A DNA stretch of 64,000 bases from Lysobacterales bacterium (lineage in GTDB: Bacteria; Pseudomonadota; Gammaproteobacteria; Xanthomonadales; Rhodanobacteraceae), in NCBI GenBank assembly GCA_014338185.1, contig QUBV01000005.1, positions 1 to 64,000 of the forward strand, written 5' to 3'. The position numbers and the translations under genes are program-made. This document shows, piece by piece, positions 1-43,419 of this stretch. Each line of letters begins with the position of its first letter. Within the stretch, counting starts at the first letter, position 1. The notes under the pieces are model-generated. The model was not told the DNA's origin. It worked only from the letters and a program-made list of their open reading frames with translations, and did not search any database.

Positions 1-232
1 GTTCGGCCGCGTGCCCGTGCGCCGCGTGCGCGCTGTCGGCAGGCGCGGCCGGCGTCGAGTGTGCATGGACGTGCTGCGCGGCCGCCACCGCGCCCGCCGC
101 GTGCTGCGCCTTGAGGCGCGCCGCGGCCAGCGTCTGCGACACCACCGGCGCGAACACCGTGAGCGCGATCGCGACGAGGCTGAGCCAGACCAGGCTGCGG
201 TGCTGGAAGCGCTGGCGGAGCGGCGAACGCAC
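1..232 (-). CDS. DUF2946-like small exported protein (3' part missing at window edge)
   Basis: About 77 codons are visible; the stop lies beyond the left edge. From a GTG at 232 the product opens with an Arg-rich n-region, then a hydrophobic stretch (LVWLSLVAIALTVFAPVVSQ), then an Ala/His-rich region with repeated HA and HG pairs. This layout, with the APVVSQ-type segment, resembles DUF2946 proteins, short exported or membrane proteins of unknown role often found near TonB-dependent receptor or metal genes (family knowledge). It starts just downstream of the prephenate dehydrogenase stop, so it is probably the last visible member of that operon. The start is uncertain, with only a weak purine-rich stretch upstream. 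The characteristic C-terminal part of the family cannot be checked because it is cut off. Confidence 0.5.
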   Translation of the reverse strand, partial: MRSPLRQRFQHRSLVWLSLVAIALTVFAPVVSQTLAAARLKAQHAAGAVAAAQHVHAHSTPAAPADSAHAAHGHAAE

Positions 233-246
233 GGGCGGCTGCTCGC

Positions 247-1032
247 TCAGGCCTCGGCCTGGCCGGGCGCGGGAATCGCGAGCGCGCCCGCGTCGGATTC
301 GCGCTGCAGGCGCTCGTGGATGGTGCCGAGCGTGGCGATGAAGCGTTCGCGCGCGGCCGCGGCGTACGGGTTCTCCTGCTGGATCGCCGCGAACAGGTGG
401 CCGGCGTCGCCGCGCACCGCCGCGAGCATGTTGCTGAGGCCGAGGAACGACGGCGGCGCCATCGACAGGTCGTCGCCGATGCCCATCTCGACCAGCGCCT
501 TGGCGATGTAGAACGCGAGCGCGTGGGTCTGCGCCATCGCCTCGTCGTGCGCGGTCGCGTCGCGATCGATGACTTGGCAGCCGATCTGCTCGAACAGCGC
601 GCGCGCTGCTGCGGGCAGCTGCGGGTGCTGCGCGCTCGCGCACAGCACCACGCGCAGCGGGCGCTCGCCGCGCGCGAGGCTGAGCGGGCCGAACAGCGGA
701 TGGCTGCCGATGTGGGCGATGGCCGGACCGAGCAGTTCGTCCATCCACGCCTGCGGCTGCAGCTTGACGCTGCCCACGTCGATCACGCGATGCTGTGCGC
801 GAAGCAGCGGGCGCAGTTCGAGCAGCGCCGCGCGCATGCGGCGCAGCGGCATCGCCAGCACCACCCAGTGCGCCGCTGCGAGGGCCTGTTCGGGCGATGC
901 CGCGGCGAGCTCGGCCGGCACCGGCGCCACGGGATCGACCACGCGCACGGTGTGGCCGGCCTGCCGCAGCAGCGTGGCGAAGGCCTGGCCGAAGCGGCCG
1001 TAGCCGAACAGGGCGACCGTCGCGTCTGTCAT
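247..1032 (-). CDS. Prephenate dehydrogenase (TyrA-type)
   Basis: 261 residues. The N-terminus carries a Rossmann dinucleotide site, GYGRFG at residues 10-15, followed by VVDP at 31-34, and the prephenate-dehydrogenase signature HPLFGP is at 111-116. The family oxidatively decarboxylates prephenate to 4-hydroxyphenylpyruvate, the step before tyrosine. No chorismate mutase or ACT domain is present and the protein is shorter than many TyrA enzymes. Its ATG overlaps the stop of the upstream cysteine-synthase-like gene by four bases, so translation is probably coupled. The setting beside a tyrosine-decarboxylase-like gene suggests a dedicated pathway copy rather than the housekeeping tyrA (inference). 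Arogenate or another related substrate cannot be excluded. Confidence 0.85.
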   Translation of the reverse strand: MTDATVALFGYGRFGQAFATLLRQAGHTVRVVDPVAPVPAELAAASPEQALAAAHWVVLAMPLRRMRAALLELRPLLRAQHRVIDVGSVKLQPQAWMDELLGPAIAHIGSHPLFGPLSLARGERPLRVVLCASAQHPQLPAAARALFEQIGCQVIDRDATAHDEAMAQTHALAFYIAKALVEMGIGDDLSMAPPSFLGLSNMLAAVRGDAGHLFAAIQQENPYAAAARERFIATLGTIHERLQRESDAGALAIPAPGQAEA

Positions 1033-2120
1033 GCGGTTGGCGCCAACGGCGCGCTGCCGTCGGCAAGGCAGCGCGTGAGCCGCGCATGCCACGGCTGCGG
1101 GTCGATGCCGTGCAGGTCGAGCCATTCGCTGCTGAACAGCGTCTCGGCGTAGCGCTCGCCGCGGTCGCACAGCAGGCTCACGATGCTGCCGCGCTCGCCA
1201 CGCGCGCGCATCGCCGCGGCCAGTTCGAGGCAGGCCACGAGGTTGGTGCCCGAGGAGCCGCCGTAACGGCGCGCGAAGATCTCTTCGAGCAGCCAGGTCG
1301 CCGCGACCGAGGCGGCGTCGGGCACTTCCAGCACCGCGTCGACCACGTCGAACAGGAAGCACGGCTCCACCCGCGCCCGGCCGATGCCCTCGATGAGCGT
1401 GGGCTGGCTGGCGCAGGCGTCGGCGCGGCGCGAGCGCCAGCCGTGGGCGAAGCTGCGGCCGCTGGGTTCGGCCACGCACAGGCGCGTGGGCAGGCGTCGG
1501 TAGCGCAGGTAGCGGCCGATCGTGGCCGAGGTGCCGCCGGTGCCGGCGCCGCACACGATCCACGCGGGCTTGGCATGCGGCTCGCGCGTGAGCTGGCCGA
1601 GGATCGATTCGGCGATGTTGTTGTTGCCGCGCCAGTCGGTGGCGCGCTCGGCCAGGCCGAACTGGTCGAGGTGGCAGGCGCCGTTGCGCGCATGCGTGGC
1701 CGCGCGCTCGTACACCTCGGCTGGGTCGTCGACGAGGTCGCAGCTGCCGCCGAGCGCCTCCACCGCGCGGATCTTCGCGGGCGCGGTGCAGGCCGGCATC
1801 ACTGCGGTGAAGTGCAGCCCGAGCAGGCGCGCGAACCACGCCTCGGCGATCGCGGTGCTGCCCGAGGACGCATCCACCACGGGCTGGCCCTGGCGCAGGC
1901 GGCCGTTGCACAGCGCGTACAGGTACAGCGAGCGCGCGAGACGGTGCTTGAGGCTGCCGGTCGGGTGCGCGGCCTCGTCCTTGAAGTAGAAGTCGATGCC
2001 GGCGTAGCCGGGCAGTTCGATCTTGAGCAGGTGAGTGTCGGCCGAACGCGCGGCTTCGCGCTCGAGCGCGTCGATCGCGGCGTGCAGCCAGGCGCGGTCG
2101 CAGGCGGGGAACTGGGTCAT
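1029..2120 (-). CDS. PLP-dependent cysteine synthase family protein (fold type II)
   Basis: 363 residues. The PLP lysine is expected at K58 in GSLKHR; a phosphate-binding SSGSTA loop, an NNNIAES segment and a GAGTGGT glycine loop follow, as in cysteine synthase / cystathionine beta-synthase relatives. These enzymes catalyse beta-replacement or beta-elimination on serine- or cysteine-derived substrates in the cytosol. The surrounding sequence differs from housekeeping CysK/CysM, so the substrate is open; related enzymes such as SbnA make diaminopropionate for siderophores (family knowledge). The ATG overlaps the upstream decarboxylase stop by four bases, and its own stop overlaps the next start by four bases. 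The three genes therefore look like one translationally coupled pathway. Confidence 0.85.
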   Translation of the reverse strand: MTQFPACDRAWLHAAIDALEREAARSADTHLLKIELPGYAGIDFYFKDEAAHPTGSLKHRLARSLYLYALCNGRLRQGQPVVDASSGSTAIAEAWFARLLGLHFTAVMPACTAPAKIRAVEALGGSCDLVDDPAEVYERAATHARNGACHLDQFGLAERATDWRGNNNIAESILGQLTREPHAKPAWIVCGAGTGGTSATIGRYLRYRRLPTRLCVAEPSGRSFAHGWRSRRADACASQPTLIEGIGRARVEPCFLFDVVDAVLEVPDAASVAATWLLEEIFARRYGGSSGTNLVACLELAAAMRARGERGSIVSLLCDRGERYAETLFSSEWLDLHGIDPQPWHARLTRCLADGSAPLAPTA

Positions 2121-4054
2121 GGCGTGGGGGTCCGGTCGAGCAGCGTCGCGGTGCAACGCGCGAGGTAGGCGAAATAGCACTCGATGTAGCTGATGCCGTT
2201 GTCGCGGTCGATCAGGTACGGATTCATGAGCGTGTGGCGCAGGATCGTCAGCGGTTCGCCGTCGAGCTCGGCGTCGAGGCCGAGCGTGGCAAGGATCTGG
2301 CGCGTCTGCTCGGCGCCGACCAGCTCCGGGCGCAGCGTGGTGGTGGAACCGAAGAACTCCTTGACCTGCAGCGGCTGGTGCACGTCGGGGCGCAGCAGCT
2401 CGTACAGGCGCTGCATGAAGCGGTTGGCCGCCGCGAGCGAGCGGTTGCCGCGCGGATTGAACGCCAGGCACACGAGGTTGCTGTCGGGCTCGAACGGCAC
2501 GCGCGCATGCAGGTAGGGGGCGACCTCGTCGGTGAAGCGCTGCGCGCGCTCGTAGAAGATCTCGGTGTAGCGCACGGTCGAATGCGGCAGCCGGCCGAAG
2601 TGGCGGTGGTCGAGCGGCAGCACCTTGTGCGCGACGTACACGCCGGCCGCGGCCGCGCCCGACTTGGAGCCTTCGGGAATGAATTGGCCGAGGCTGCGGA
2701 AGCGTTCGAGGTAGGTGCGCGGCGCGTGGCCATGGAAGATGTAGTCGGCGCGCTCGGCCAGCAGATCCATCGCGCGGTGGTCGCGGCACACGAACGCGCC
2801 GCTGCCGAACGGCAGGTAGCCGAGCTTGTGCGGATCGACCGTGACCGAGTCGGTGTCGCCAAGCGCGGCGAACGCACGGTACAGTGGCGGCGAGGGGAAG
2901 TATCTGTATTCGGCGGCGACCTCCTCGCGGCTGCGCAGCGTGCCGTCCTCGTTGCGGAACACCGTGGCGAGGTAGCCGCCCCACGCGGCATCGACATGCA
3001 CGGCGAAATCCAGCCCGAGCGGGCGCACCGCGGCACGCGCGGCGAGCACGCCGTCGACCGGGTCGATCGTGCCGTATTCGGTGCTGCCGAGCACCGCGAC
3101 CGCGAGCAGCACCGGTATGCGCTCGCGCGCGCAGCGCTGCACATGCGCGGCCAGTGCATCGGCATCCAGGCGCATGCCGCGCGTGGGCAACAGGTCGAGC
3201 TGGTCGCGGCCGAGGCCGAGCATCTTGACGCCCTTGCTCCACGAGTAGTGCGCGGTGATCGGCGCGAGCACGCGCGGTGGGCGCAGCTGCGGATGGGCGG
3301 CAAAGAACCCGGCGATGCCCAGTTGCTCGATGCGGGCCGCTTCCACCCGCGCATGCCAGCGCGCGCGCTCGGCCGCGGGCTGCGCGGCCAGCCAGGCCTG
3401 CCAGCGCTGCAGCAGCGCGATGCTGTCGGCGCCGCCGAGGTTGAACGCGCTCCAGTCATCGACGGGCAGGTCCAGGCCGGGTGCGCCGGCCGCGCGCAGC
3501 GCGACCGGAAAGGCCTTGAGCGCGAGCGCCAGGCGCAGGCCCTGGTAGTTGGCCAGCGTGCCGCCCGAGGTGAGGTGGCCGAACGCGCAGTCGGCGCGCG
3601 CGGGATCGTCGACATAGCCGAGCATGCGCGCGAGCTGCAGGCCGACCTTGACCTCGAGATCGACCGTGACCGGCGCCGCCTCCTCGGTCACGTTGTTGGG
3701 GTTGTAGGGCAGCGCGAGCATCTGCGCCGCGAGCCCGGGCAGCAGCAGGTCCGAGGCCATGTGGCCGATGTAGCGCGGGCTGTGGAACGGCATCGAGCGC
3801 TTGAGCGCGGCCGACAGCTGGTGCAGCTCGCGGCGCATGCGCGCCTCGAACGCCTGATAGTCGGGATGGAGCGAGGCCGCAGTGCCGATCGCGGGCGGAT
3901 CCTCGGGATGGAAATTGCGCCGCCAGTACACGTGGTCGCGCAGGAACTCGACCAGGATGCGCTCGAGCAGCGCGTCGTTCTCGCCGTAGGGGCCGAGGAA
4001 ACAGGCGTCGAGCACGTGGTCGTGCGCGGGTGGGGCGGACGTGGAGGTGGGCAC
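2117..4054 (-). CDS. Group II PLP-dependent decarboxylase, tyrosine-decarboxylase-like
   Basis: 645 residues. The segment YNPNNVTEE with TVDLEVKVG, then HLTSGGTLANYQG, matches the cofactor-domain layout of bacterial tyrosine decarboxylases (about 620 residues). The PLP lysine is K410 in VDPHKLGYLPFGSG, and VDAAWGG supplies the usual aspartate. The family decarboxylates aromatic or acidic amino acids to amines in the cytosol. The large size and the NPNN motif favour a TyrDC-like over a glutamate- or diaminobutyrate-type enzyme, but the substrate is inferred. The start is a GTG at 4054; no upstream in-frame ATG is available and no good ribosome site is visible. It is the first gene of a three- or four-gene operon with four-base overlaps. 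Confidence 0.85.
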   Translation of the reverse strand: MPTSTSAPPAHDHVLDACFLGPYGENDALLERILVEFLRDHVYWRRNFHPEDPPAIGTAASLHPDYQAFEARMRRELHQLSAALKRSMPFHSPRYIGHMASDLLLPGLAAQMLALPYNPNNVTEEAAPVTVDLEVKVGLQLARMLGYVDDPARADCAFGHLTSGGTLANYQGLRLALALKAFPVALRAAGAPGLDLPVDDWSAFNLGGADSIALLQRWQAWLAAQPAAERARWHARVEAARIEQLGIAGFFAAHPQLRPPRVLAPITAHYSWSKGVKMLGLGRDQLDLLPTRGMRLDADALAAHVQRCARERIPVLLAVAVLGSTEYGTIDPVDGVLAARAAVRPLGLDFAVHVDAAWGGYLATVFRNEDGTLRSREEVAAEYRYFPSPPLYRAFAALGDTDSVTVDPHKLGYLPFGSGAFVCRDHRAMDLLAERADYIFHGHAPRTYLERFRSLGQFIPEGSKSGAAAAGVYVAHKVLPLDHRHFGRLPHSTVRYTEIFYERAQRFTDEVAPYLHARVPFEPDSNLVCLAFNPRGNRSLAAANRFMQRLYELLRPDVHQPLQVKEFFGSTTTLRPELVGAEQTRQILATLGLDAELDGEPLTILRHTLMNPYLIDRDNGISYIECYFAYLARCTATLLDRTPTP

Positions 4055-4233
4055 GGCGGTGGCGGCGATGGGCGTGGCGGCAAGCGTGTAGCCTAACCCA
4101 TGCCGCGGCGCTGATCCGGATCAAACCGCGCGGGGGCTGCGCGCATGTGCCGCAGGGGTGGGTGACGCGGGTCAAGGGCGGTTGGGGTGAGCTGCGCGAT
4201 ACTGCGCCGATCCCATTCCACGGAGACCTGCCG

Positions 4234-4722
4234 ATGCGTCCGTATCCCGTCCTTCTTGCCGTGGCCGCGGCACTGGCCGCCGCCGCGCTGCCGGCCACTG
4301 CGCAGGAGCATGCGCACCACGGTCATGCCGCGCCTGCGGCCGCGCCGGCCCCGGCACCGGCGCAGCGCTGGGCCACCGATGCGCCGCTGCGCGAGGGCAT
4401 GGCGCGCGTGCGCGCCGCGCTCAGCGACCTCAGCCATCACGAGATGGGCCACATGAGCGATGCGCAGGCCCGCGAGTTCGCGGTCAACGTGCAGGACGCG
4501 GTCAAGTACATGTTCGACCACTGCAAGCTCGCGGCCGAGCCCGATGCGGCGCTGCACGCGATCCTCGTGCCGCTGCTCGCGGCCGCGCAGCGGCTCGACA
4601 AGGACCCCGCCGACAAGGCCGCGGTGGCGGCGATGCGCGACGCGGTGGCGCCGTATCCGAACCAGTTCGACGATCCGGCCTGGCCCGCGGCCAAGCCCGC
4701 GGCGGGCCAGCACCAGCATTGA
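4234..4722 (+). CDS. Small His-rich periplasmic protein (DnrO-like label in Xanthomonadales)
   Basis: 162 residues. The product has a clear signal peptide (to about residue 23, ending ATAQ), then a His-rich linker (EHAHHGHAAP) and a helical domain containing HHEMGHMS and a DHCKL segment with a single Cys. The C-terminus ends in a second small His cluster. The ATG is chosen because GGAG lies at 4222-4225, eight bases upstream. I recall similar Xanthomonadales proteins labelled DnrO, but no function is established for them. The His/Met content suggests metal binding in the periplasm (inference). The next gene starts 49 bases downstream on the same strand. Confidence 0.75.
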   Translation: MRPYPVLLAVAAALAAAALPATAQEHAHHGHAAPAAAPAPAPAQRWATDAPLREGMARVRAALSDLSHHEMGHMSDAQAREFAVNVQDAVKYMFDHCKLAAEPDAALHAILVPLLAAAQRLDKDPADKAAVAAMRDAVAPYPNQFDDPAWPAAKPAAGQHQH

Positions 4723-4771: not shown

Positions 4772-5077
4772 ATGACCGACTACATCCAGGCCTGGCAGTG
4801 CATCGGTTGCGGCAAGATCGAGGCGCCGCAGACCTGCATCGGCGTGTGCCGCGATCGCAAGGTGTACTTCATCGGCAAGGCCGAGCACGAGGCCGCGCTC
4901 GCGCAGGTGGCGCAACTGCGTGCGCGCCTCGAAGCCGCCTCGCGCATGCTGCTGCGCTTCGAGCGCGCCAGTCCGCGCGAGGGCCAGTGGCAGGCCGCGT
5001 GGCTTGCCCTGCAGGAGCAGGTGCGCGCGCTGCGCGCGCTGCTCGCGACCGACGACCCCGGCCCGGCGCAGCCCTGA
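4772..5077 (+). CDS. Hypothetical 101-residue protein with N-terminal Cys motif
   Basis: The product begins MTDYIQAWQCIGCGKIEAPQ and continues TCIGVCRDRK: the pairs C10-x2-C13 and C22-x3-C26 look like a small zinc-ribbon-type or metal-binding knuckle. The rest is an Ala/Leu/Arg-rich helix, possibly a coiled coil, from about residue 38 to 92. GAGGGTGG precedes the ATG and serves as ribosome site. There is no signal peptide, so it is probably cytosolic. The coding call rests on the ribosome site, the Cys spacing and its placement in a same-strand series. No family name is offered. Confidence 0.65.
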   Translation: MTDYIQAWQCIGCGKIEAPQTCIGVCRDRKVYFIGKAEHEAALAQVAQLRARLEAASRMLLRFERASPREGQWQAAWLALQEQVRALRALLATDDPGPAQP

Positions 5078-8282: not shown

Positions 8283-10838
8283 TCAGTGCGAGGTCGCGGG
8301 CGCAGGCAGCGCCTGCAGGCGCGCTTGCCACTGGCGCAGGTCGGCGACGGCCGAGGGCTGCGCGCGATACAGCTCGACCAGGGCGCTCGCCGCCGCGCGC
8401 TGTTCGTCGACGAGTTGGGCCTGTTGCGCGGCCTGCCAGGCCTGTTGCAGCGTGTGCGCGGCCTGTGCGCGCTCGCCGCGCGCGAGCTGGGTTTGCGCGA
8501 GCAGGCGCTGCAGCCGCGCCAGCGGGCGTTGTTCGGTGCGGCGCGACCAGCGTTGCAGCGCATCGACGAGCAGGTTCGTGGCTTCATCGAGCTGGCCGCG
8601 GTGCAGGCAGACTTCGGCGAGGTTGGCCTGCAGGCGCAGCGTCACCGGATGATCGGCGCCCACCGCCGCGCGCATGCCTTGCCAGGCCGCGCGCTGCATC
8701 GGCTCGGCGGTGGCGTAGTCACCGCGGCGTCGCGGCCAGGCGGCGAGATTGTTGAGCACATTGAGCGTGCGCGGATCGTGTTCGCCGAACACGCTGCGCA
8801 TCGCCTCGTACACCTGCCGGTACAGCGCGTGCGCCTCGTCGCTGCGGCCCAGTCGGGCCAGGGTCCAGGCCAGCGTGTTCATCTGCTCGAGCACGCGCGG
8901 ATCGTCCGCGCCCAGGCTCACGCGCGCCTGCTCGATCGTGCGCCGGTACAGCGGCTCGGCTTCGGCGAAGCGGTCCTGGCTGGCCAGCGCCGTCGCCAGC
9001 GCGCCACGCACCGCGAGCGCCTCGGCGGCATCGCCGCCACGCACCGCCTCGATGCGTGCGAGGGCCTCGCGCAGCAGGCCCTCGGCCTGCACCGGGTCGG
9101 TGTCGAGCAGCCACTCGCCCAGCAGCGCGCGCGCCTGGGCGGTTTCCACGGCCGCGGGACCGCGGACGCGCTCGTGCCGCGCCAGCACCTCGCGCACCAG
9201 GGCCTCGCCGCCCGTGGCGTGCGCGTCGACCGCGAGCCGCGCCCGCGCCCGCAGGCTGGCGAGGGTGCGCGGTGCCGCCGGTCCGTCGGTGGCCTCGAAC
9301 AGCGCGGTGGCGGCGTCCTGCAGGCGCACGGCATCGTCCAGGCGCAAGAGGCTGCCGTAGCTGTCGGCCAGGGTCTGCAGCAGGGCGGCGCGTATGCCCG
9401 GTTGTTGCGCGAAGCGCGTGTCGGCCGCGCGGGTGGCCGGCGCCAGCACCGCGCCGTCGAGAAGGTCGACGGCGATGCCGGTGAAGTCCATCTGCTCGAG
9501 CGCGGCAGTGGCGGATGCGGGCGCCTGTTCGACCGCCGCGGCCGTGGCCAGGCGCAGCTTGCTGCCCAGTGCCTGCGGATCGATGCCCTTGAGCATGTCG
9601 GTCTGGAAGGTCACCACGGCCTGCAGTTCGCGTGCCTGCGCGCGTGCCTGCCATTCGCCGCGAAGCACGGCGCCGCCGGCGACCAGGGTTGCGGCCAGGC
9701 ACAGCAGCGCCAGTGCGCTGGCAAGGCGGTTGCGCCGCACGAGCTTGCGCAAGCGCTGCCAGCGGCCTTGGCGGCGGGCGTGGATCGGGCGATGGTCGAG
9801 CCACGCCTGCAGGTCCGCGGCCAGCGCATCGACCGCGGGGTAACGCTGGCCAGGGTCGCTGGCCAGCGCGCAGCCGAGGATCGCGTCGAGGTCGCCCGCG
9901 AGCGCACGCGCATGCAGCGGATGGCCCGCGGCGCGGGCGACGCTGGAAGCGGGCAGGGGCTCGCCATGGGCGTCGGCCTGCGGTGGGCGTCCGGTCAGCA
10001 GCCGATGCAGCATCGCGCCCAGGCCATACACGTCGATCGCGGTGCTGGGGGGCAGGTTGCCGGCGCGCTGCTCGGGCGCGGCGTAGTCGGGCGTGAACGC
10101 ACGCGTGCAGTGCGCGCTGCTGCCGTCGCTGGCGTCGAGCAGGCGCGCGATGCCGAAATCGAGCAGGCAGGCGTGGCCGTCGGCGTCGACGAGGATGTTG
10201 GATGGCTTGAGGTCGCGGTGCACGACCAGTTGCCGATGCGCATAGGCCACGGCGGCGCATACCTGCAACAGCAGGCGCACGCGTGCGGGCAGCGGCAGCT
10301 GGCGCTGCTCGCACCAGGTGTCGATGCGCTCGCCATCGACCAGGCTCATGACCAGGTACGGGGTGCCTTGCGGATCGATGCCGCCGTCGAGCAGGCGCGC
10401 GATGTGCGGGTGCTGGAGGCGGGCGAGGATCATGCGTTCGCGACGGAAGCGCGCATGGTCGGCGGCCCCGCTCAGGACCAGGCTCAACAGCTTCACGGCG
10501 GCCACTTGCCGGTAGTCCCCGCCGATGCGCTCGGCGCGATACACCGCGGCCATGCCGCCACGGCCGAGCAGTTCGAGCAGGTGCCAGTCGCCGACCTGCC
10601 TGCCCAGCAGTGGATCGATCCGGTCCGGCACCGCGCCGTGCAGCGGCAAGGCCGGCGGCGCGTCGAGCAGCTCATGCCGGCGCACGCTGGCGCCGAGCAT
10701 CAGTTGCAGCTTGTCGTGCAGTGCGGGCGGCAGGGTCCAGCTGGCCAGCAGTTGCTGGCGGCCTGGCTCATCCAGTTCGATGAGCCGTGCAAACAGGCGG
10801 TCGGCCTCGCGCCATTGTTCGCGCTCGGCGGCATCCAT
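8283..10838 (-). CDS. Transmembrane Ser/Thr protein kinase with C-terminal TPR-like region
   Basis: 851 residues. The cytosolic kinase domain (about 85-350) has the glycine loop LLGRGGMAAVY, the ATP lysine K116, HRDLKPSN with catalytic D209, DFG at 227-229 and an APE at 254-256. One membrane helix spans about 372-392, and the rest (about 400-851) is Ala/Leu-rich with TPR-type repeats, presumably periplasmic. The ATG follows the sigma-factor stop by only four bases (TGAaccgATG), so the two are an operon. The pair resembles PknS-EcfK of Xanthomonas and PknT-EcfP of Vibrio, where the kinase activates an ECF43-type sigma factor by threonine phosphorylation (established for those systems). The assignment here is by architecture and linkage. 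Confidence 0.92.
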   Translation of the reverse strand: MDAAEREQWREADRLFARLIELDEPGRQQLLASWTLPPALHDKLQLMLGASVRRHELLDAPPALPLHGAVPDRIDPLLGRQVGDWHLLELLGRGGMAAVYRAERIGGDYRQVAAVKLLSLVLSGAADHARFRRERMILARLQHPHIARLLDGGIDPQGTPYLVMSLVDGERIDTWCEQRQLPLPARVRLLLQVCAAVAYAHRQLVVHRDLKPSNILVDADGHACLLDFGIARLLDASDGSSAHCTRAFTPDYAAPEQRAGNLPPSTAIDVYGLGAMLHRLLTGRPPQADAHGEPLPASSVARAAGHPLHARALAGDLDAILGCALASDPGQRYPAVDALAADLQAWLDHRPIHARRQGRWQRLRKLVRRNRLASALALLCLAATLVAGGAVLRGEWQARAQARELQAVVTFQTDMLKGIDPQALGSKLRLATAAAVEQAPASATAALEQMDFTGIAVDLLDGAVLAPATRAADTRFAQQPGIRAALLQTLADSYGSLLRLDDAVRLQDAATALFEATDGPAAPRTLASLRARARLAVDAHATGGEALVREVLARHERVRGPAAVETAQARALLGEWLLDTDPVQAEGLLREALARIEAVRGGDAAEALAVRGALATALASQDRFAEAEPLYRRTIEQARVSLGADDPRVLEQMNTLAWTLARLGRSDEAHALYRQVYEAMRSVFGEHDPRTLNVLNNLAAWPRRRGDYATAEPMQRAAWQGMRAAVGADHPVTLRLQANLAEVCLHRGQLDEATNLLVDALQRWSRRTEQRPLARLQRLLAQTQLARGERAQAAHTLQQAWQAAQQAQLVDEQRAAASALVELYRAQPSAVADLRQWQARLQALPAPATSH

Positions 10839-10842
10839 CGGT

Positions 10843-11400
10843 TCAGGCCAACTGGGCCAGCAGCAACGCGCGCGCGCGTTGCCACTCGCGATTGACCGTA
10901 CGCAGCGAGCGCTGCTGGGCCTGCGCGACCTGGTCGAGCGTGAGTCCGGCGAAGACGCGCAATTCGACCAGTTCGCGCAGTGCCGGATTGATTTCCTCGA
11001 GTCGGTCGAGCGCGGCATCGATGTCCAGCAGGGCCGATTGGGTGGCTTCGTGCCCGTCGGCATCGATCCATGTGAGCGCGCCCGCCGATTCGGCGCCACC
11101 GCGCTTGAGGCTGGCCCGGGCGCGGTAGGCATCGATGAGGATCTGGCGCATCGCGCGCGCCGCGCAGGCGAAGAAGTGGTGCTGGTCGGAAAAATCCAGG
11201 TCATGCGCCCCAACGAGCTTCACGTAGGCCTCGTTGACCAGCGCGGTGGGGCTGAGCGTGGGCAGGTCCCCGCCGCTGCGCAGACGTGCCGCAGCGAGGG
11301 TGCGCAGCGCCGGGTATACCGCGCTGAATACTGCATCGACCGCACGCACCTCACCCGAGCGTGCGGCCGCAAGAAGCTCGGTGATGTCGCCCACGCCCAT
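10843..11400 (-). CDS. ECF-type RNA polymerase sigma factor (ECF43 / Sig-70_X6-like)
   Basis: 185 residues. Region 2 includes SPTALVNEAYVKL and HHFFACAARAMRQILIDAYRAR; region 4 is ALRELVELRVFAGLTLDQVAQAQQRSLRTVNREW with the helix-turn-helix. The TALVNEAY segment and length are typical of the ECF43/Sig-70_X6 group, common in Xanthomonadales next to Ser/Thr kinases. No anti-sigma gene is present; the partner is the kinase four bases downstream. In the characterised systems a region-2 threonine is phosphorylated; T48 and T52 are candidates by position (inference). The ATG at 11400 faces a divergent secreted-protein gene across 184 bases, which may hold target promoters. Confidence 0.9.
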   Translation of the reverse strand: MGVGDITELLAAARSGEVRAVDAVFSAVYPALRTLAAARLRSGGDLPTLSPTALVNEAYVKLVGAHDLDFSDQHHFFACAARAMRQILIDAYRARASLKRGGAESAGALTWIDADGHEATQSALLDIDAALDRLEEINPALRELVELRVFAGLTLDQVAQAQQRSLRTVNREWQRARALLLAQLA

Positions 11401-13445: not shown

Positions 13446-14204
13446 TCAGCGTTGCAGGATCGCGCGCGCCACCTCGAACAGCGCGGCGGGATCGGTGATC
13501 GTGACCTGGCGGCCGTCGACCGCGATGAAGCCGCGGTCCTGGAAGCGGCGCAGCACCCGGCTGACCGTCTCGGCGGCCAGACGCAGGTAGTTGGCGATAT
13601 CGCCGCGCGACATCGCCAGCGTGAGCGTGTGCAGCGGGAAGCCGCGCTCGGCGTAGCGGCGTCCCAGGTTGATGAGGAAGGCGGCCAGCCGCTCGTCGGC
13701 CGAATAGTCACCGGCCACGAGCGCGGCGTTGCCGATGTCGCGGCTCAGACGCCGGAACAGTTCCTGCTGCACCGAAGGGATGCGCGAGGCGAGCGTGGCC
13801 AGCGCGGGAAACGCGAAGCGGCACACTTCCACCTTGCCCAGCGCGATCGCGTCGCATGGGTAGGTTTCCGGGTCGATCGCGTTGAGCCCGACCAGTTCGC
13901 CGGGCAGGTGGAAGCCGAGGATCAGCTCGCGCCCTTCCAGGTCGACCTGGCGGGTCTTGACCATGCCCTTGCGCACGGCATAGATCGCGTTGAAGCGGTC
14001 GCCGCTGCGGAAGATCGCATCGCCGTTGCGATAGTTGCCGACGTGCTCGACCAGGCAATGCAGGTCGTGCAGGCCCATCTTGCCGATGCCTCCGCCCAGG
14101 CACACCGCGCCGAATGCGCAGGTGGAGCAGAAGGTGTACTCGTCGCCATCGTCGGCGATCGGGCTCGGTGGGGCGATGCGCCCCGCGGGTTCGACCTTGC
14201 CCAT
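13446..14204 (-). CDS. fnr: FNR/ANR-type oxygen-responsive transcription regulator
   Basis: 252 residues. The N-terminal cluster C26-x2-C29-x5-C35 plus C117 (TYPCDAI) matches the four [4Fe-4S] ligands of FNR (C20, C23, C29, C122 in E. coli). A cyclic-nucleotide-binding-like beta roll follows and the C-terminal helix-turn-helix is SRGDIANYLRLAAETVSRVLRRF, whose E-x2-SR core reads TTGAT-type half-sites. The ATG at 14204 is preferred over the GTG at 14213 because GGAGAC lies ten bases before the ATG and too close to the GTG. It lies 15 bases downstream of hemN and is probably co-transcribed with it. The protein controls the switch to low-oxygen metabolism. Confidence 0.93.
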   Translation of the reverse strand: MGKVEPAGRIAPPSPIADDGDEYTFCSTCAFGAVCLGGGIGKMGLHDLHCLVEHVGNYRNGDAIFRSGDRFNAIYAVRKGMVKTRQVDLEGRELILGFHLPGELVGLNAIDPETYPCDAIALGKVEVCRFAFPALATLASRIPSVQQELFRRLSRDIGNAALVAGDYSADERLAAFLINLGRRYAERGFPLHTLTLAMSRGDIANYLRLAAETVSRVLRRFQDRGFIAVDGRQVTITDPAALFEVARAILQR

Positions 14205-14219
14205 GCGCCGCACTGTCTC

Positions 14220-15617
14220 CTAGACGGCGCGCGAATAGCGAGTCCCTGTTTCGGCGCCGAGGTAAGCATCAAAGCACATCGCGATGTTGCGCAGCAGGAA
14301 CTGGCCGCGCGGGGTCACCGTGATGCGTTCGGGAGTGCTCTCGACCAGCCCGTCCTCGGCCAGAGGCGCGAGTCGATCGAGCGAACCCCGGAAATACTCG
14401 GCGAAGTATACGAGATGGCGTGCCTCGAAGGCAGGGATGTCGAGGCTGCCCAGGCACATGAGCTGCTGGATCGCGTCGGCGCGCAGCAGGTCATCGTCAC
14501 TCAGGCGCAGGCCGCGCATCGTGGGCAGGCGGCCGCTGTCGAGCGCGGCGTAGTAGCCGAGCAGGTCGCGCGGGTTCTGGCTGAAGCTGTCGCCGACATG
14601 GCTGATCGCGCTCATGCCGAAGCCGATGAGATCGCAGGCGGCGTGGGTGGAGTAGCCCTGGAAATTGCGCTGCAGCGTGCCTGCTTCGGCCGCACGTGAG
14701 AGATCGTCCTCCGGCAGCGCGAAATGGTCCACGCCGATGTAGCGGTAGCCGGCCGCGGTGAGCGTCTCCACGGCCAGCTGCAGCAGTCCCAGGCGTGCGT
14801 TGGCATCGGGCAGGTCGAACTTGTCGATCTGCTTCTGCGCGGGAAAGCGCTCGGGCAGGTGCGCATAGCCGTAGGCTGCGATGCGATCGGGCCGCAGTGC
14901 GATGACCTGGTCGAGCGTGCGTCGGAACGAGTCGGCATTCTGCCGCGGCAGACCGTAGATGAGGTCGAGGTTGACCGAGCGGATGCCCGCATCGCGCCCG
15001 CCTTCCATCACCGCGCGGGTCTGTTCCACGCTCTGGATGCGGTTCACCGCCTGCTGCACTTCCGGGTCGAAGTCCTGCACGCCGATGGACAGGCGGTTGA
15101 TGCCGGCCGCGGCGATCTGGCGCACGTAGGCGCCATCGCAGAAGCGTGGGTCGAGTTCGACCGCGAACTCGCGGTCGGGGCGGCGGCTGAAGCTGAAGTA
15201 GCGGCCGAGCGTCTCGATGAGCTCGGCCAGCTGGTCACCGTCGAGGAAGTTGGGCGTGCCGCCGCCGAAGTGCAGCTGCGCGAGGCTGCGATCGCGCGCG
15301 AACAGCGCCGATACCGTCTCGATCTCGCGGTACAGCCGCGCGAGGTAGGTGCCGGCCTTGCTCTTGTCGTGGGTGATGATGCGCGCGCAGCCGCAGTAGA
15401 AGCACGGCGACAGGCAGAACGGCACGTGCACGTACACCGAGATGTCGCGCGGGATCGGGTCTTCGTTGGAGGCCAGGATCGCCTGGCGCAGCTCGGCTTC
15501 GCCAAAATCGTTGCGGAACTGCGGCGCGGTCGGGTACGAGGTGTAGCGCGGGCCGTTGACGTCGTAGCGGGCGACGAGCTCGCGGTCGAATACCGGAGGC
15601 AGGGGACGTGCGATCAT
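14220..15617 (-). CDS. hemN: Oxygen-independent coproporphyrinogen III oxidase (radical SAM)
   Basis: 465 residues, as expected for HemN. The radical SAM cluster motif is C68-x3-C72-x2-C75 within PFCLSPCFYCGC; the GGGTPNFLD and HLPERFPAQ segments and the C-terminal HemN domain are present. The enzyme converts coproporphyrinogen III to protoporphyrinogen IX without oxygen for haem synthesis in the cytosol. The ATG at 15617 (MIARPLPPVF) is preferred to an upstream in-frame start. It is the first gene of a hemN-fnr pair, and an FNR box is centred about 41 bases upstream of this ATG. The position suggests direct anaerobic control. Confidence 0.95.
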   Translation of the reverse strand: MIARPLPPVFDRELVARYDVNGPRYTSYPTAPQFRNDFGEAELRQAILASNEDPIPRDISVYVHVPFCLSPCFYCGCARIITHDKSKAGTYLARLYREIETVSALFARDRSLAQLHFGGGTPNFLDGDQLAELIETLGRYFSFSRRPDREFAVELDPRFCDGAYVRQIAAAGINRLSIGVQDFDPEVQQAVNRIQSVEQTRAVMEGGRDAGIRSVNLDLIYGLPRQNADSFRRTLDQVIALRPDRIAAYGYAHLPERFPAQKQIDKFDLPDANARLGLLQLAVETLTAAGYRYIGVDHFALPEDDLSRAAEAGTLQRNFQGYSTHAACDLIGFGMSAISHVGDSFSQNPRDLLGYYAALDSGRLPTMRGLRLSDDDLLRADAIQQLMCLGSLDIPAFEARHLVYFAEYFRGSLDRLAPLAEDGLVESTPERITVTPRGQFLLRNIAMCFDAYLGAETGTRYSRAV

Positions 15618-15651: not shown

Positions 15652-15665
15652 TTGACCCCAATCAA
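15652..15665. promoter_or_regulatory. FNR/ANR box in the hemN-lysR intergenic region
   Basis: TTGACCCCAATCAA matches the FNR consensus TTGAT-N4-ATCAA at nine of ten specified bases. It sits between divergent hemN and the lysR-type gene, two genes from fnr itself. Its centre (15658.5) is 41.5 bases from the hemN ATG, the classic class II distance only if the transcript starts at or next to the ATG. It is also about 75 bases from the lysR ATG. Occupancy is inferred. Confidence 0.7.
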
Positions 15666-41702: not shown

Positions 41703-43419
41703 GCAGGTCTCCCAGCGTGCTGAACACCCAGGCGTGGTAGGACGCCACAACCTTCTTGTCCTTGCAGTCGAGGTAACGGCCCTTGCAGCGTTCACGCAGC
41801 AAGGTGTTGGCCTGATAGAACGCATCCTTGGGCACGCCCGCGACATCGAGCACGAGCGAGCCGAGGAAGGCGATGTCGAGCACCGGGTAGTCGTAGCGCG
41901 CGCGCACCGGGTAGTTGGACTTGATCATGTAGTAGGTGACCCAGTGCGCAATCGGCCCGGCCGCCTTGGGCACCTGCTTGGGGATCTCGTTGATCGCGCC
42001 GTCGAAGGAAGGCTGGTGGTCGCCGAAATGCGCGAGCACGGCCGGGCGCTTGGCGTCGAGCAGGAGCTTTTGCAACCGCGTGAGCATCGCATCGGATTCG
42101 TGCAGGCGCTGCAGGTAGTTGCCGAGATTGAGGTTGAGCCACTCATCCAGTGCCTTGGGCTTGAAGCTGCCCGCGAACAGCGGCCGGTTGAACGGCGGTG
42201 GCAGCTGCGCGAGCGGCGTCATGTGCGGACCATGCTGGTGCAGCGTGAGCATGAAGATGAACAGCGGGGTGTCGGGGTGTGCGGCCCTTTCCTCGGCAAG
42301 GATGCGCTCGAACACCTGGAGCAGGTCGGCGTCGCGGCTGTCCCAGCCCAGCCCGTACTCGGTGCCGTCGTAGAACGCGTCGAACCCGTAGTAGTCGTAG
42401 GCGTTGCGCGCGTTGAGGAAGTCGCCGCTCATCGGGTACAGCGCGATCGCGCGGTAGCCCGCGTGCTGGAACGCCTTGGGCAAGGTGTAGGCCACGCGCG
42501 GCGCGAGGTTGTAGGGCGCGTACAGACCGGCGTTGCCGAACAGGGTGTGGGCGAGGCCGGTCAGCGCCGAGAACTCGCTGGTCCAGGTGCCACCGCCGAA
42601 GGTGTGCACGGTCATGAGGCCATGGGCACGCGTGCGCTTGTCGGCGTCGAACATCGCCGCGCGGCACGCCGCGATCGTGCACAACTTGAGGATGCGCGGG
42701 TCGAAGGTGCTCTCCTCGAGCACGAGCACCACGTCGGGTGGCTGCGCGGGCGCCTGCATCGGCCGGTCGAGCTTCCAGGACAGGCTGCGGTCGACGCCGG
42801 GCGGGATCGCCGGCTCGTTGATGACGGTGTCGTTGAACGAGGTCAGGAAGTCGGTGATGAAGCTCTTGTCGTTGATCGTGATCCACATTGGCTTGTTGAA
42901 CACGCTGCCGAACGGGCCATCCGCCGACAGCAGCAGCGCCAGTGCCCAGCCCGCCAGCGCACTGCCGCCGACGCGCACGGCAACGCGCACCGCGCGCGGG
43001 CGCTGCGCCAGCAAGGTGGCGCGCTCGCCCATGAAGCTGGCCACCAGCACGAGCGGCACGACCACGAGCGTGCCCAGCCCCACCGCGAGCAACAGCGGGT
43101 AATGCGTGAACATCTCCAGCGTGCCGCTGGTGACGAAATACTCGAGATCGGGCGCGAGCAGGGGCGTGGTGAGGTACTTGAACTTGAGCACGCCGGCCAA
43201 CTCGATCGCGCCGAACAGCGCGCTCACCGCCACCAGCGCGAACGCGACGCGGGCCGAGGCGAACAGCAGCAGCAGCAGCGTGGCGAGGATCACCGCCGCG
43301 GCGAACAGCTTCTCGGTGGTGGTGTTCTCGGTGAGCGGGCCGAAGGCGATGAGTGCGCCGAACGCGAGTGCGGCGCCGATGCGCAACAGCCGGGTGTGGC
43401 GTGGGAGCGGCGGGCTCAT
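41689..43419 (-). CDS. LTA-synthase/sulfatase-type membrane enzyme, paralogue B
   Basis: 576 residues, the same length as paralogue A. Shared blocks in order are [62 protein letters not shown] and [11 protein letters not shown]. About five membrane segments lie before residue 185; the catalytic domain is periplasmic. The nucleophile is expected in GGGTWTSE. The start is [10 protein letters not shown] at 43419. It lies 79 bases downstream of lpxB and its end overlaps rnhB, so it is probably in the lpx operon; modification of LPS or of a periplasmic glucan is a reasonable inference. Phosphoethanolamine versus phosphoglycerol transfer cannot be told apart. Confidence 0.87.

Follow-up and report, generated by a model that had tools for sequence, protein, structure and literature searches.

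The left end of contig QUBV01000005.1, from a Lysobacterales bacterium of the family Rhodanobacteraceae (GCA_014338185.1), raises the question of why genes for a decarboxylase, a cysteine-synthase-like enzyme, and a TyrA-type dehydrogenase, here termed DEC, CDS, and TYRA, are packed into one operon. The window, which denotes the whole stretch of 64,000 nucleotides analysed, starts at base 1 of the contig, and the assembly holds no sequence to the left of this position. In the original prediction, the coupling of the three genes was taken to imply one pathway to tyramine or a tyramine-derived product. In Rhodanobacteraceae and Xanthomonadaceae, an island under FNR control gathers genes of oxygen-independent biosynthesis. 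The operon is part of it, and the best explanation of the locus, considered probable, is that TYRA supplies tyrosine without oxygen within this island. The three genes are as follows.

4054-2117, minus strand: DEC, 645 amino acids, GTG start, K410; group II decarboxylase dependent on pyridoxal phosphate (PLP), similar to tyrosine decarboxylase (TyrDC); first gene of the operon.
2120-1029, minus strand: CDS, 363 amino acids; PALP-fold enzyme nearest to the L-cysteine desulfhydrase Cds1; ATGA overlap with DEC.
1032-247, minus strand: TYRA, 261 amino acids; TyrA-family dehydrogenase; ATGA overlap with CDS.

Four-base ATGA overlaps occur at both junctions, DEC/CDS and CDS/TYRA, and the same gene pairs recur in relatives, so that the coupling first proposed holds and is no chance event. 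A contig scan matched 331 stretches, of which 296 were confirmed; the best 80 of these, hereafter the named loci, come from Dokdonella, Rhodanobacter, Dyella, Frateuria, Tahibacter, Thermomonas, Lysobacter, Luteimonas, Pseudoxanthomonas, and other genera. Gene order was read from these 80 loci and from 40 loci of family genomes, with the genomes partly shared between the two sets, and the genes recur in the order HemN, Fnr, NorZ (a nitric oxide (NO) reductase), SirB, DEC, CDS, TYRA, UbiD, UbiU, UbiV, FabB, FabA, NadB, NadA, and UbiT. The parts that are missing vary by genome, and the order with its four-base overlaps is found again across genera. The island UbiU, UbiV, UbiT, HemN, and NadA pass their NCBIfam equivalog models, and the island UbiD reaches 705 bits against the E. 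coli UbiD model (cut-off 788). At least one of UbiD, UbiU, UbiV, UbiT, NorZ, HemN, FNR, NadB, and FabB lies in 68 of the 80 named loci; the anaerobic partners are absent from the other 12 within the available DNA, several of these loci being short. Most of these genes stand in for oxygen-dependent steps: HemN replaces HemF, UbiU and UbiV replace the flavin hydroxylases, FabA and FabB the desaturases, and NadB and NadA the kynurenine route. In Dyella jiangningensis (CP007444.1), the island occupies two places on the chromosome (L124 and L126) with identical gene order.

The next gene within 350 bp after DEC in the named loci is CDS in 43 cases, TYRA in 16, UbiD in 4, and HemN in 1. Among the 147 genomes of the family, genes are no more than 3 kb apart in 24 of the 32 genomes having both DEC and CDS, in all 18 having CDS and TYRA, and in 11 of the 16 having DEC and TYRA. 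The full trio is rarer and forms one cluster in 7 of the 147 family genomes and 9 of the 80 named loci. Since the three genes are often apart, a single linear three-step pathway is unlikely. The members are indeed separable, with NorZ-CDS, CDS-TYRA, and DEC-UbiD each found alone, which speaks for a reading of the genes as mere neighbours in an anaerobic setting, without a function in common, their overlaps arising from shared FNR control and compact packing. This reading, against which the recurrence of the overlapping order across genera counts, is quite unlikely, and its sole difference from the best explanation is that it grants TYRA no role as a replacement.

Co-occurrence in the family genomes was assessed by within-genus permutation (20,000 permutations, p floor 5e-5), with 15 pairs and uncorrected p values. 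Carriers number 51 for DEC, 39 for UbiU, 39 for UbiD, 46 for CDS, 27 for TYRA, and 37 for NorZ; the CDS count covers the close clade alone, 46 of the 63 genomes matched, the 17 with a distant homologue (at most 416 bits) being excluded, and the NorZ count is likewise that of the close clade, 37 of 66, the 29 scoring below 954 bits being excluded. Sharing is in excess at p 5e-5 for UbiU-UbiD (common to 37 genomes of 39 each), DEC-UbiD (33 genomes observed vs a mean of 22.3), DEC-UbiU, and DEC-CDS. The PDH_N domain, counted at E <= 1e-8, accompanies UbiU in 28 genomes (mean 20.4, p 2.5e-4), and TYRA itself accompanies UbiU in 14 (mean 9.0, p 3.8e-3); further excess is found for PDH_N-UbiD (p 7e-4), PDH_N-DEC (p 3.1e-3), and TYRA-CDS (p 0.039).

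The control of the operon can be read from the DNA upstream of DEC, and the window has both an FNR box before the operon and, close by, a gene for an Fnr-type regulator.

4111..4124: FNR/DNR-type box located 57-70 bp before the start of DEC; TTGATCCGGATCAG in the direction of DEC.
13446..14204, minus strand: Fnr-type regulator (PRK11161, 179 bits vs a cut-off of 228).
14220..15617, minus strand: HemN, oxygen-independent coproporphyrinogen III oxidase (TIGR00538, 533 bits vs a cut-off of 325).
15652..15665: FNR-type box directly upstream of hemN.

Only three sites in the 64-kb window match the FNR-type box with one mismatch or none, the third at 42872 within a called gene, against a shuffle mean of 0.17. 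In the named loci, two of which were left out of the box count for too short upstream DNA, a box matching at least 9/10 lies within 300 bp upstream in 22 of the 45 loci where DEC leads its unit (shuffle mean 0.22, maximum 2), and in 1 of the 33 where DEC closely follows another island gene (SirB, HemN, or FNR). Falling oxygen would be expected to switch the island on via FNR.

TYRA is predicted to be a monofunctional prephenate (or arogenate) dehydrogenase, as judged from its domain, conserved residues, and modelled structure. Its PDH_N domain scores 46.2 bits and passes the Pfam gathering score of 26.5, and the HPLFGP motif named in the original prediction starts at H111; the TyrA-type assignment made there holds. 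H111 and K90 (of SVK) are invariant in the alignments, and their counterparts are presumably the catalytic H197 and K178 of E. coli TyrA (HPxxGP and SxK). An AlphaFold model of TYRA (mean predicted local distance difference test (pLDDT) score 87.5) groups with solved prephenate dehydrogenases by Foldseek, the top matches being TyrA-family enzymes from soybean, Aquifex, and Haemophilus. TYRA is thus like the TyrA family in its Rossmann fold, the catalytic-type His in HPLFGP, and the Lys in SVK, but it is short, has neither a chorismate mutase (CM) nor an ACT domain, does not keep the arginines of the T-protein's substrate helix at their places, and differs in its setting in an FNR-controlled anaerobic operon. 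A search for TYRA across the class at E <= 1e-20 found 1 of 369 genomes, the window's own, in a set with few members of the same family or order. At L077 (9900-11100) and L099 (11900-12500), only end fragments of TYRA are found, flanked by CDS and UbiD, as after an internal deletion.

A need for such an enzyme is suggested by the tyrosine supply of the family, in which phenylalanine hydroxylase (PF00351) is encoded by 141 of the 147 genomes and a PDH_N domain by 47, with at most one per genome. TYRA is present in 27 of these 47 and is the only PDH_N match in all 27, the window's genome included. In Dyella japonica, a member of the same family, GapMind finds no convincing TyrA candidate, and fitness data indicate a tyrosine route via phenylalanine hydroxylase that, as the authors note, cannot run without oxygen (PMC7311316). 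This route is common in the family and oxygen-dependent, and TYRA would be its oxygen-free counterpart. The family appears to make tyrosine mainly via an oxygen-requiring enzyme, yet many members have genes of anaerobic respiration, and TYRA would explain tyrosine synthesis without oxygen in these members; TYRA is most simply accounted for as the enzyme that makes tyrosine when oxygen is absent. Moreover, two genomes (G043 and G084) carry in its place an E. coli-type CM-TyrA (T-protein), non-orthologous to TYRA, scoring 380 and 385 bits (cut-off 273).

L058:14199-15332 and L062:2593-3726: CM-TyrA (T-protein), divergent, beside DEC.

Because T-proteins occupy TYRA's place, a tyrosine role is indicated. 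TYRA would convert prephenate to tyrosine when phenylalanine hydroxylase cannot work, with haem made by HemN, ubiquinone by UbiD, UbiU, UbiV, and UbiT, unsaturated fatty acids by FabA and FabB, and nicotinamide adenine dinucleotide by NadB and NadA. The island would allow these soil bacteria to produce essential compounds in the absence of oxygen, among them probably tyrosine.

An unlikely alternative is that TYRA serves ubiquinone synthesis, either by aromatising or recycling spent prephenate or by setting its level, with a mutase of UbiT making the prephenate and UbiU and UbiV taking its oxygen. The evidence for it starts with UbiT, which passes its equivalog model and carries an N-terminal chorismate mutase domain, CM_2, over the Pfam gathering score in four proteins tested; in one shorter UbiT prediction, the mutase domain reaches 22.7 bits, under the gathering score.

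L046:13400-14251; L055:13465-14316; L058:7615-8475; L063:12839-13747: UbiT-chorismate mutase fusions with the active-site residues kept.

UbiT matches lie in 15 named loci, two of them cut at the edge; in the other 13, the mutase is detected by phmmer in 11, with the T-protein mutase domain as query, and by the active-site pattern only in 2. At the positions taken here to form the AroQ active site, the aligned residues are invariant in five UbiT proteins and one T-protein. The fused mutase is telling because prephenate is needed by TrhP, a related U32 enzyme (PMC6599085), and the hydroxyl of anaerobically made ubiquinone is reported to come from it, the transformation of prephenate itself being described as unknown (PMC11574389). 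A hydroxyl donor other than O2 has been shown for UbiUV of E. coli (PMC10470549), and ubiD-ubiX of R. capsulatus is reported to be needed only anaerobically (PMC10626278). Hence the UbiT sequence suggests that its mutase domain may supply prephenate to UbiUV, and it would argue independently, from genomes, that these enzymes, the chemistry of which is still unsolved, draw their oxygen from prephenate. A literature search, PMC11707229 included, turned up no description of a chorismate mutase fused to UbiT, which does not prove that there is none, and a search for Rhodanobacter denitrification together with tyrosine or ubiquinone gave nothing relevant among the matches listed.

A role of TYRA in ubiquinone synthesis also fits the distance between UbiD and TYRA, which is at most 3 kb in 13 of the 14 genomes with both. 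Against it, UbiU is missing in 13 of the 27 TYRA genomes, the window's among them, 25 of the 39 UbiU genomes are without TYRA, and ordinary, non-orthologous T-proteins stand in for TYRA. A related proposal, rather doubtful on the whole, is a prephenate-centred anaerobic module, wherein the mutase fused to the lipid carrier UbiT would form prephenate at the very place that holds the quinone precursor, UbiU and UbiV would use it as a hydroxyl donor, and TYRA would convert prephenate that is left over or spent to an aromatic product, either tyrosine or a by-product; if true, the supply of tyrosine would be tied to the hydroxylation of quinones under anaerobic conditions. In comparison with the known ubiquinone pathway of UbiU, UbiV, UbiT, and UbiD in E. 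coli, Pseudomonas, and Rhodobacter, the island agrees in its equivalog-level UbiU, UbiV, and UbiT and its close UbiD, but differs in that UbiD is coupled to DEC, CDS, or TYRA and that UbiT carries a mutase domain. The UbiD of E. coli type is nearly confined to UbiU genomes (37 of 39), so in some 108 genomes the decarboxylation of the ubiquinone precursor must proceed otherwise; a UbiN-like enzyme is one candidate, as a guess.

The first gene of the operon, DEC, is a predicted PLP-dependent amino-acid decarboxylase, the substrate of which had been proposed to be tyrosine. It contains a group II PLP decarboxylase domain and the TyrDC C-terminal domain, and matches the TyrDC equivalog (TIGR03811) over its full length at 315.8 bits, below the cut-off of 905.3. 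By alignment with the L. brevis enzyme (LbTDC), K410, named in the original prediction, corresponds to the PLP lysine K392, and H269 to the stacking histidine H241; Foldseek with the AlphaFold model (mean pLDDT 70.7, poor over the first 130 residues) likewise places tyrosine decarboxylases as the nearest solved structures. The pocket of LbTDC is altered in DEC at Y331 (W358), A585 (H607), S586 (T608), and A295 (L322), and Y398 is F416 in DEC, with Y at that place in many relatives. The changed residues include ones found important by mutagenesis of the L. brevis enzyme (PMC4904194). Taken together, DEC is like the tyrosine decarboxylases of L. brevis and E. faecalis in fold, in similarity over the full length, and in its PLP lysine and stacking histidine, but differs in its score under the cut-off and its pocket, and no amino-acid antiporter is among the annotated conserved neighbour families.

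The best guess is that DEC might convert aspartate to beta-alanine rather than tyrosine to tyramine. In this tentative reading, DEC would be an aspartate 1-decarboxylase with a PanP-like role on a TyrDC scaffold, and the operon genes would share only their regulator. PanD is missing in 17 of the 147 family genomes, and DEC is carried by 12 of these 17 vs 39 of the 130 with PanD (within-genus permutation p 0.022); the other island genes show no such link, the absence of PanD having no within-genus excess with UbiU (p 0.76), CDS (0.16), NorZ (0.65), or TYRA (0.30). On the other side stand the five PanD-less genomes without DEC, two of them 99% complete, the 39 genomes with both genes, the score against the PanP model (TIGR03799) of 97.1 bits vs a cut-off of 606.1, the lack of a known oxygen reason for replacing PanD, and a p value uncorrected over 15 associations. 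A PanP search aimed at the PanD-less genomes without DEC gave no match above the cut-off in any of the 147 genomes and is uninformative, as the model fails to tell the groups apart. The aspartate reading concerns DEC alone and is compatible with tyrosine supply by TYRA.

For CDS, the original prediction had assumed a CysK-like enzyme (K58) that adds an aminoacrylate or diaminopropionate unit. K58 does lie inside the PALP domain, but the assumed reaction is not borne out: the best model is Cds1 (NF052478), matched over its whole length at 462.5 bits and below its cut-off of 600, vs 119.6 bits for SbnA (TIGR03945, cut-off 349.95) and 130 bits for cysteine synthase. Cds1 relieves cysteine toxicity and splits the amino acid into hydrogen sulfide (H2S), pyruvate, and ammonia (PMC8389258), and CDS most likely breaks down cysteine to the same products without oxygen, an activity predicted from sequence. 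It differs from Cds1 of M. tuberculosis (Rv3684) in its location beside NO reductase and UbiD genes. NorZ is the main linkage partner of CDS, as the two occur together in 29 genomes (expected mean 23.5, p 2.9e-3) and lie at most 3 kb apart in 22 of these; CDS might serve in the handling of cysteine under NO, which would fit this linkage.

At the contig edge, the frame after TYRA is DUF2946-like (24.2 bits vs a cut-off of 23.7).

1..232, minus strand: DUF2946-like gene, GTG at about 232 or earlier (start codon uncertain), truncated by the contig end.

A TonB receptor had been predicted beyond this edge, and one is present at the matching place in the closest relative, Dokdonella sp. ACE_PRO71 (L080; DEC 87% identical), where the order is DEC-CDS-TYRA-DUF2946-TonB receptor. 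It scores 730 bits with the model for TonB-dependent copper receptors, above the cut-off of 472, and copper would suit denitrification enzymes better than a siderophore does. The receptor bears on the pathway first proposed, in which tyramine or a tyramine/diaminopropionate product would be exported and taken up again by a TonB receptor. The adjoining TyrA gene, the receptor in L080, and the tyrosine decarboxylases as the nearest solved structures of DEC all accord with this pathway, but DEC misses the TyrDC cut-off with changed pocket residues, CDS resembles Cds1 and not SbnA, the receptor is of the copper type, and DEC, CDS, and TYRA are found apart. With oxygen-independent biosynthesis and NO reductase genes as the conserved neighbours, an aromatic-amine pathway is highly improbable. 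Synthetase and exporter genes are absent from the annotated conserved neighbour families; a siderophore or diaminopropionate-unit pathway was rejected, as these families also hold no SbnA-type gene.

Several observations weigh against the best explanation, namely that TYRA supplies tyrosine in an FNR-controlled island. TYRA falls below all TyrA equivalog cut-offs, with 90.7 vs 310 bits for the best prephenate dehydrogenase model. The two arginines of the T-protein are replaced by L/A in TYRA, with A205 at the aligned position and an invariant R207 two positions on; R294 of E. coli TyrA is taken here to be the arginine that binds the ring carboxylate. In the PDH_N scan, the T-proteins of G043 and G084 score only 38 and 41 bits, and because true T-proteins score so low, divergent TyrAs may be missed. 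At the same time, PDH_N is absent in 11 of the 39 UbiU genomes and present in 19 of the 108 without UbiU, some Rhodanobacter that keep UbiUV have TYRA decayed to end fragments, and the link between DEC and the absence of PanD is weak. Finally, the window's genome, which is about 100% complete, lacks matches to UbiU, UbiD, and NorZ at the applied thresholds, for which reason its anaerobic life is uncertain.

Two small conserved genes lie upstream of DEC and recur in the island, F5 in 32 and F4 in 24 of the 80 named loci.

4162..4722, plus strand: F5, small conserved gene divergent from DEC.
4772..5077, plus strand: F4, small conserved gene with a cysteine-containing stretch at its start.

Further along the window, a serine/threonine kinase-like gene with a repeat region spans 8283-10838 and is adjoined by a short gene on the same strand at 10843-11400.

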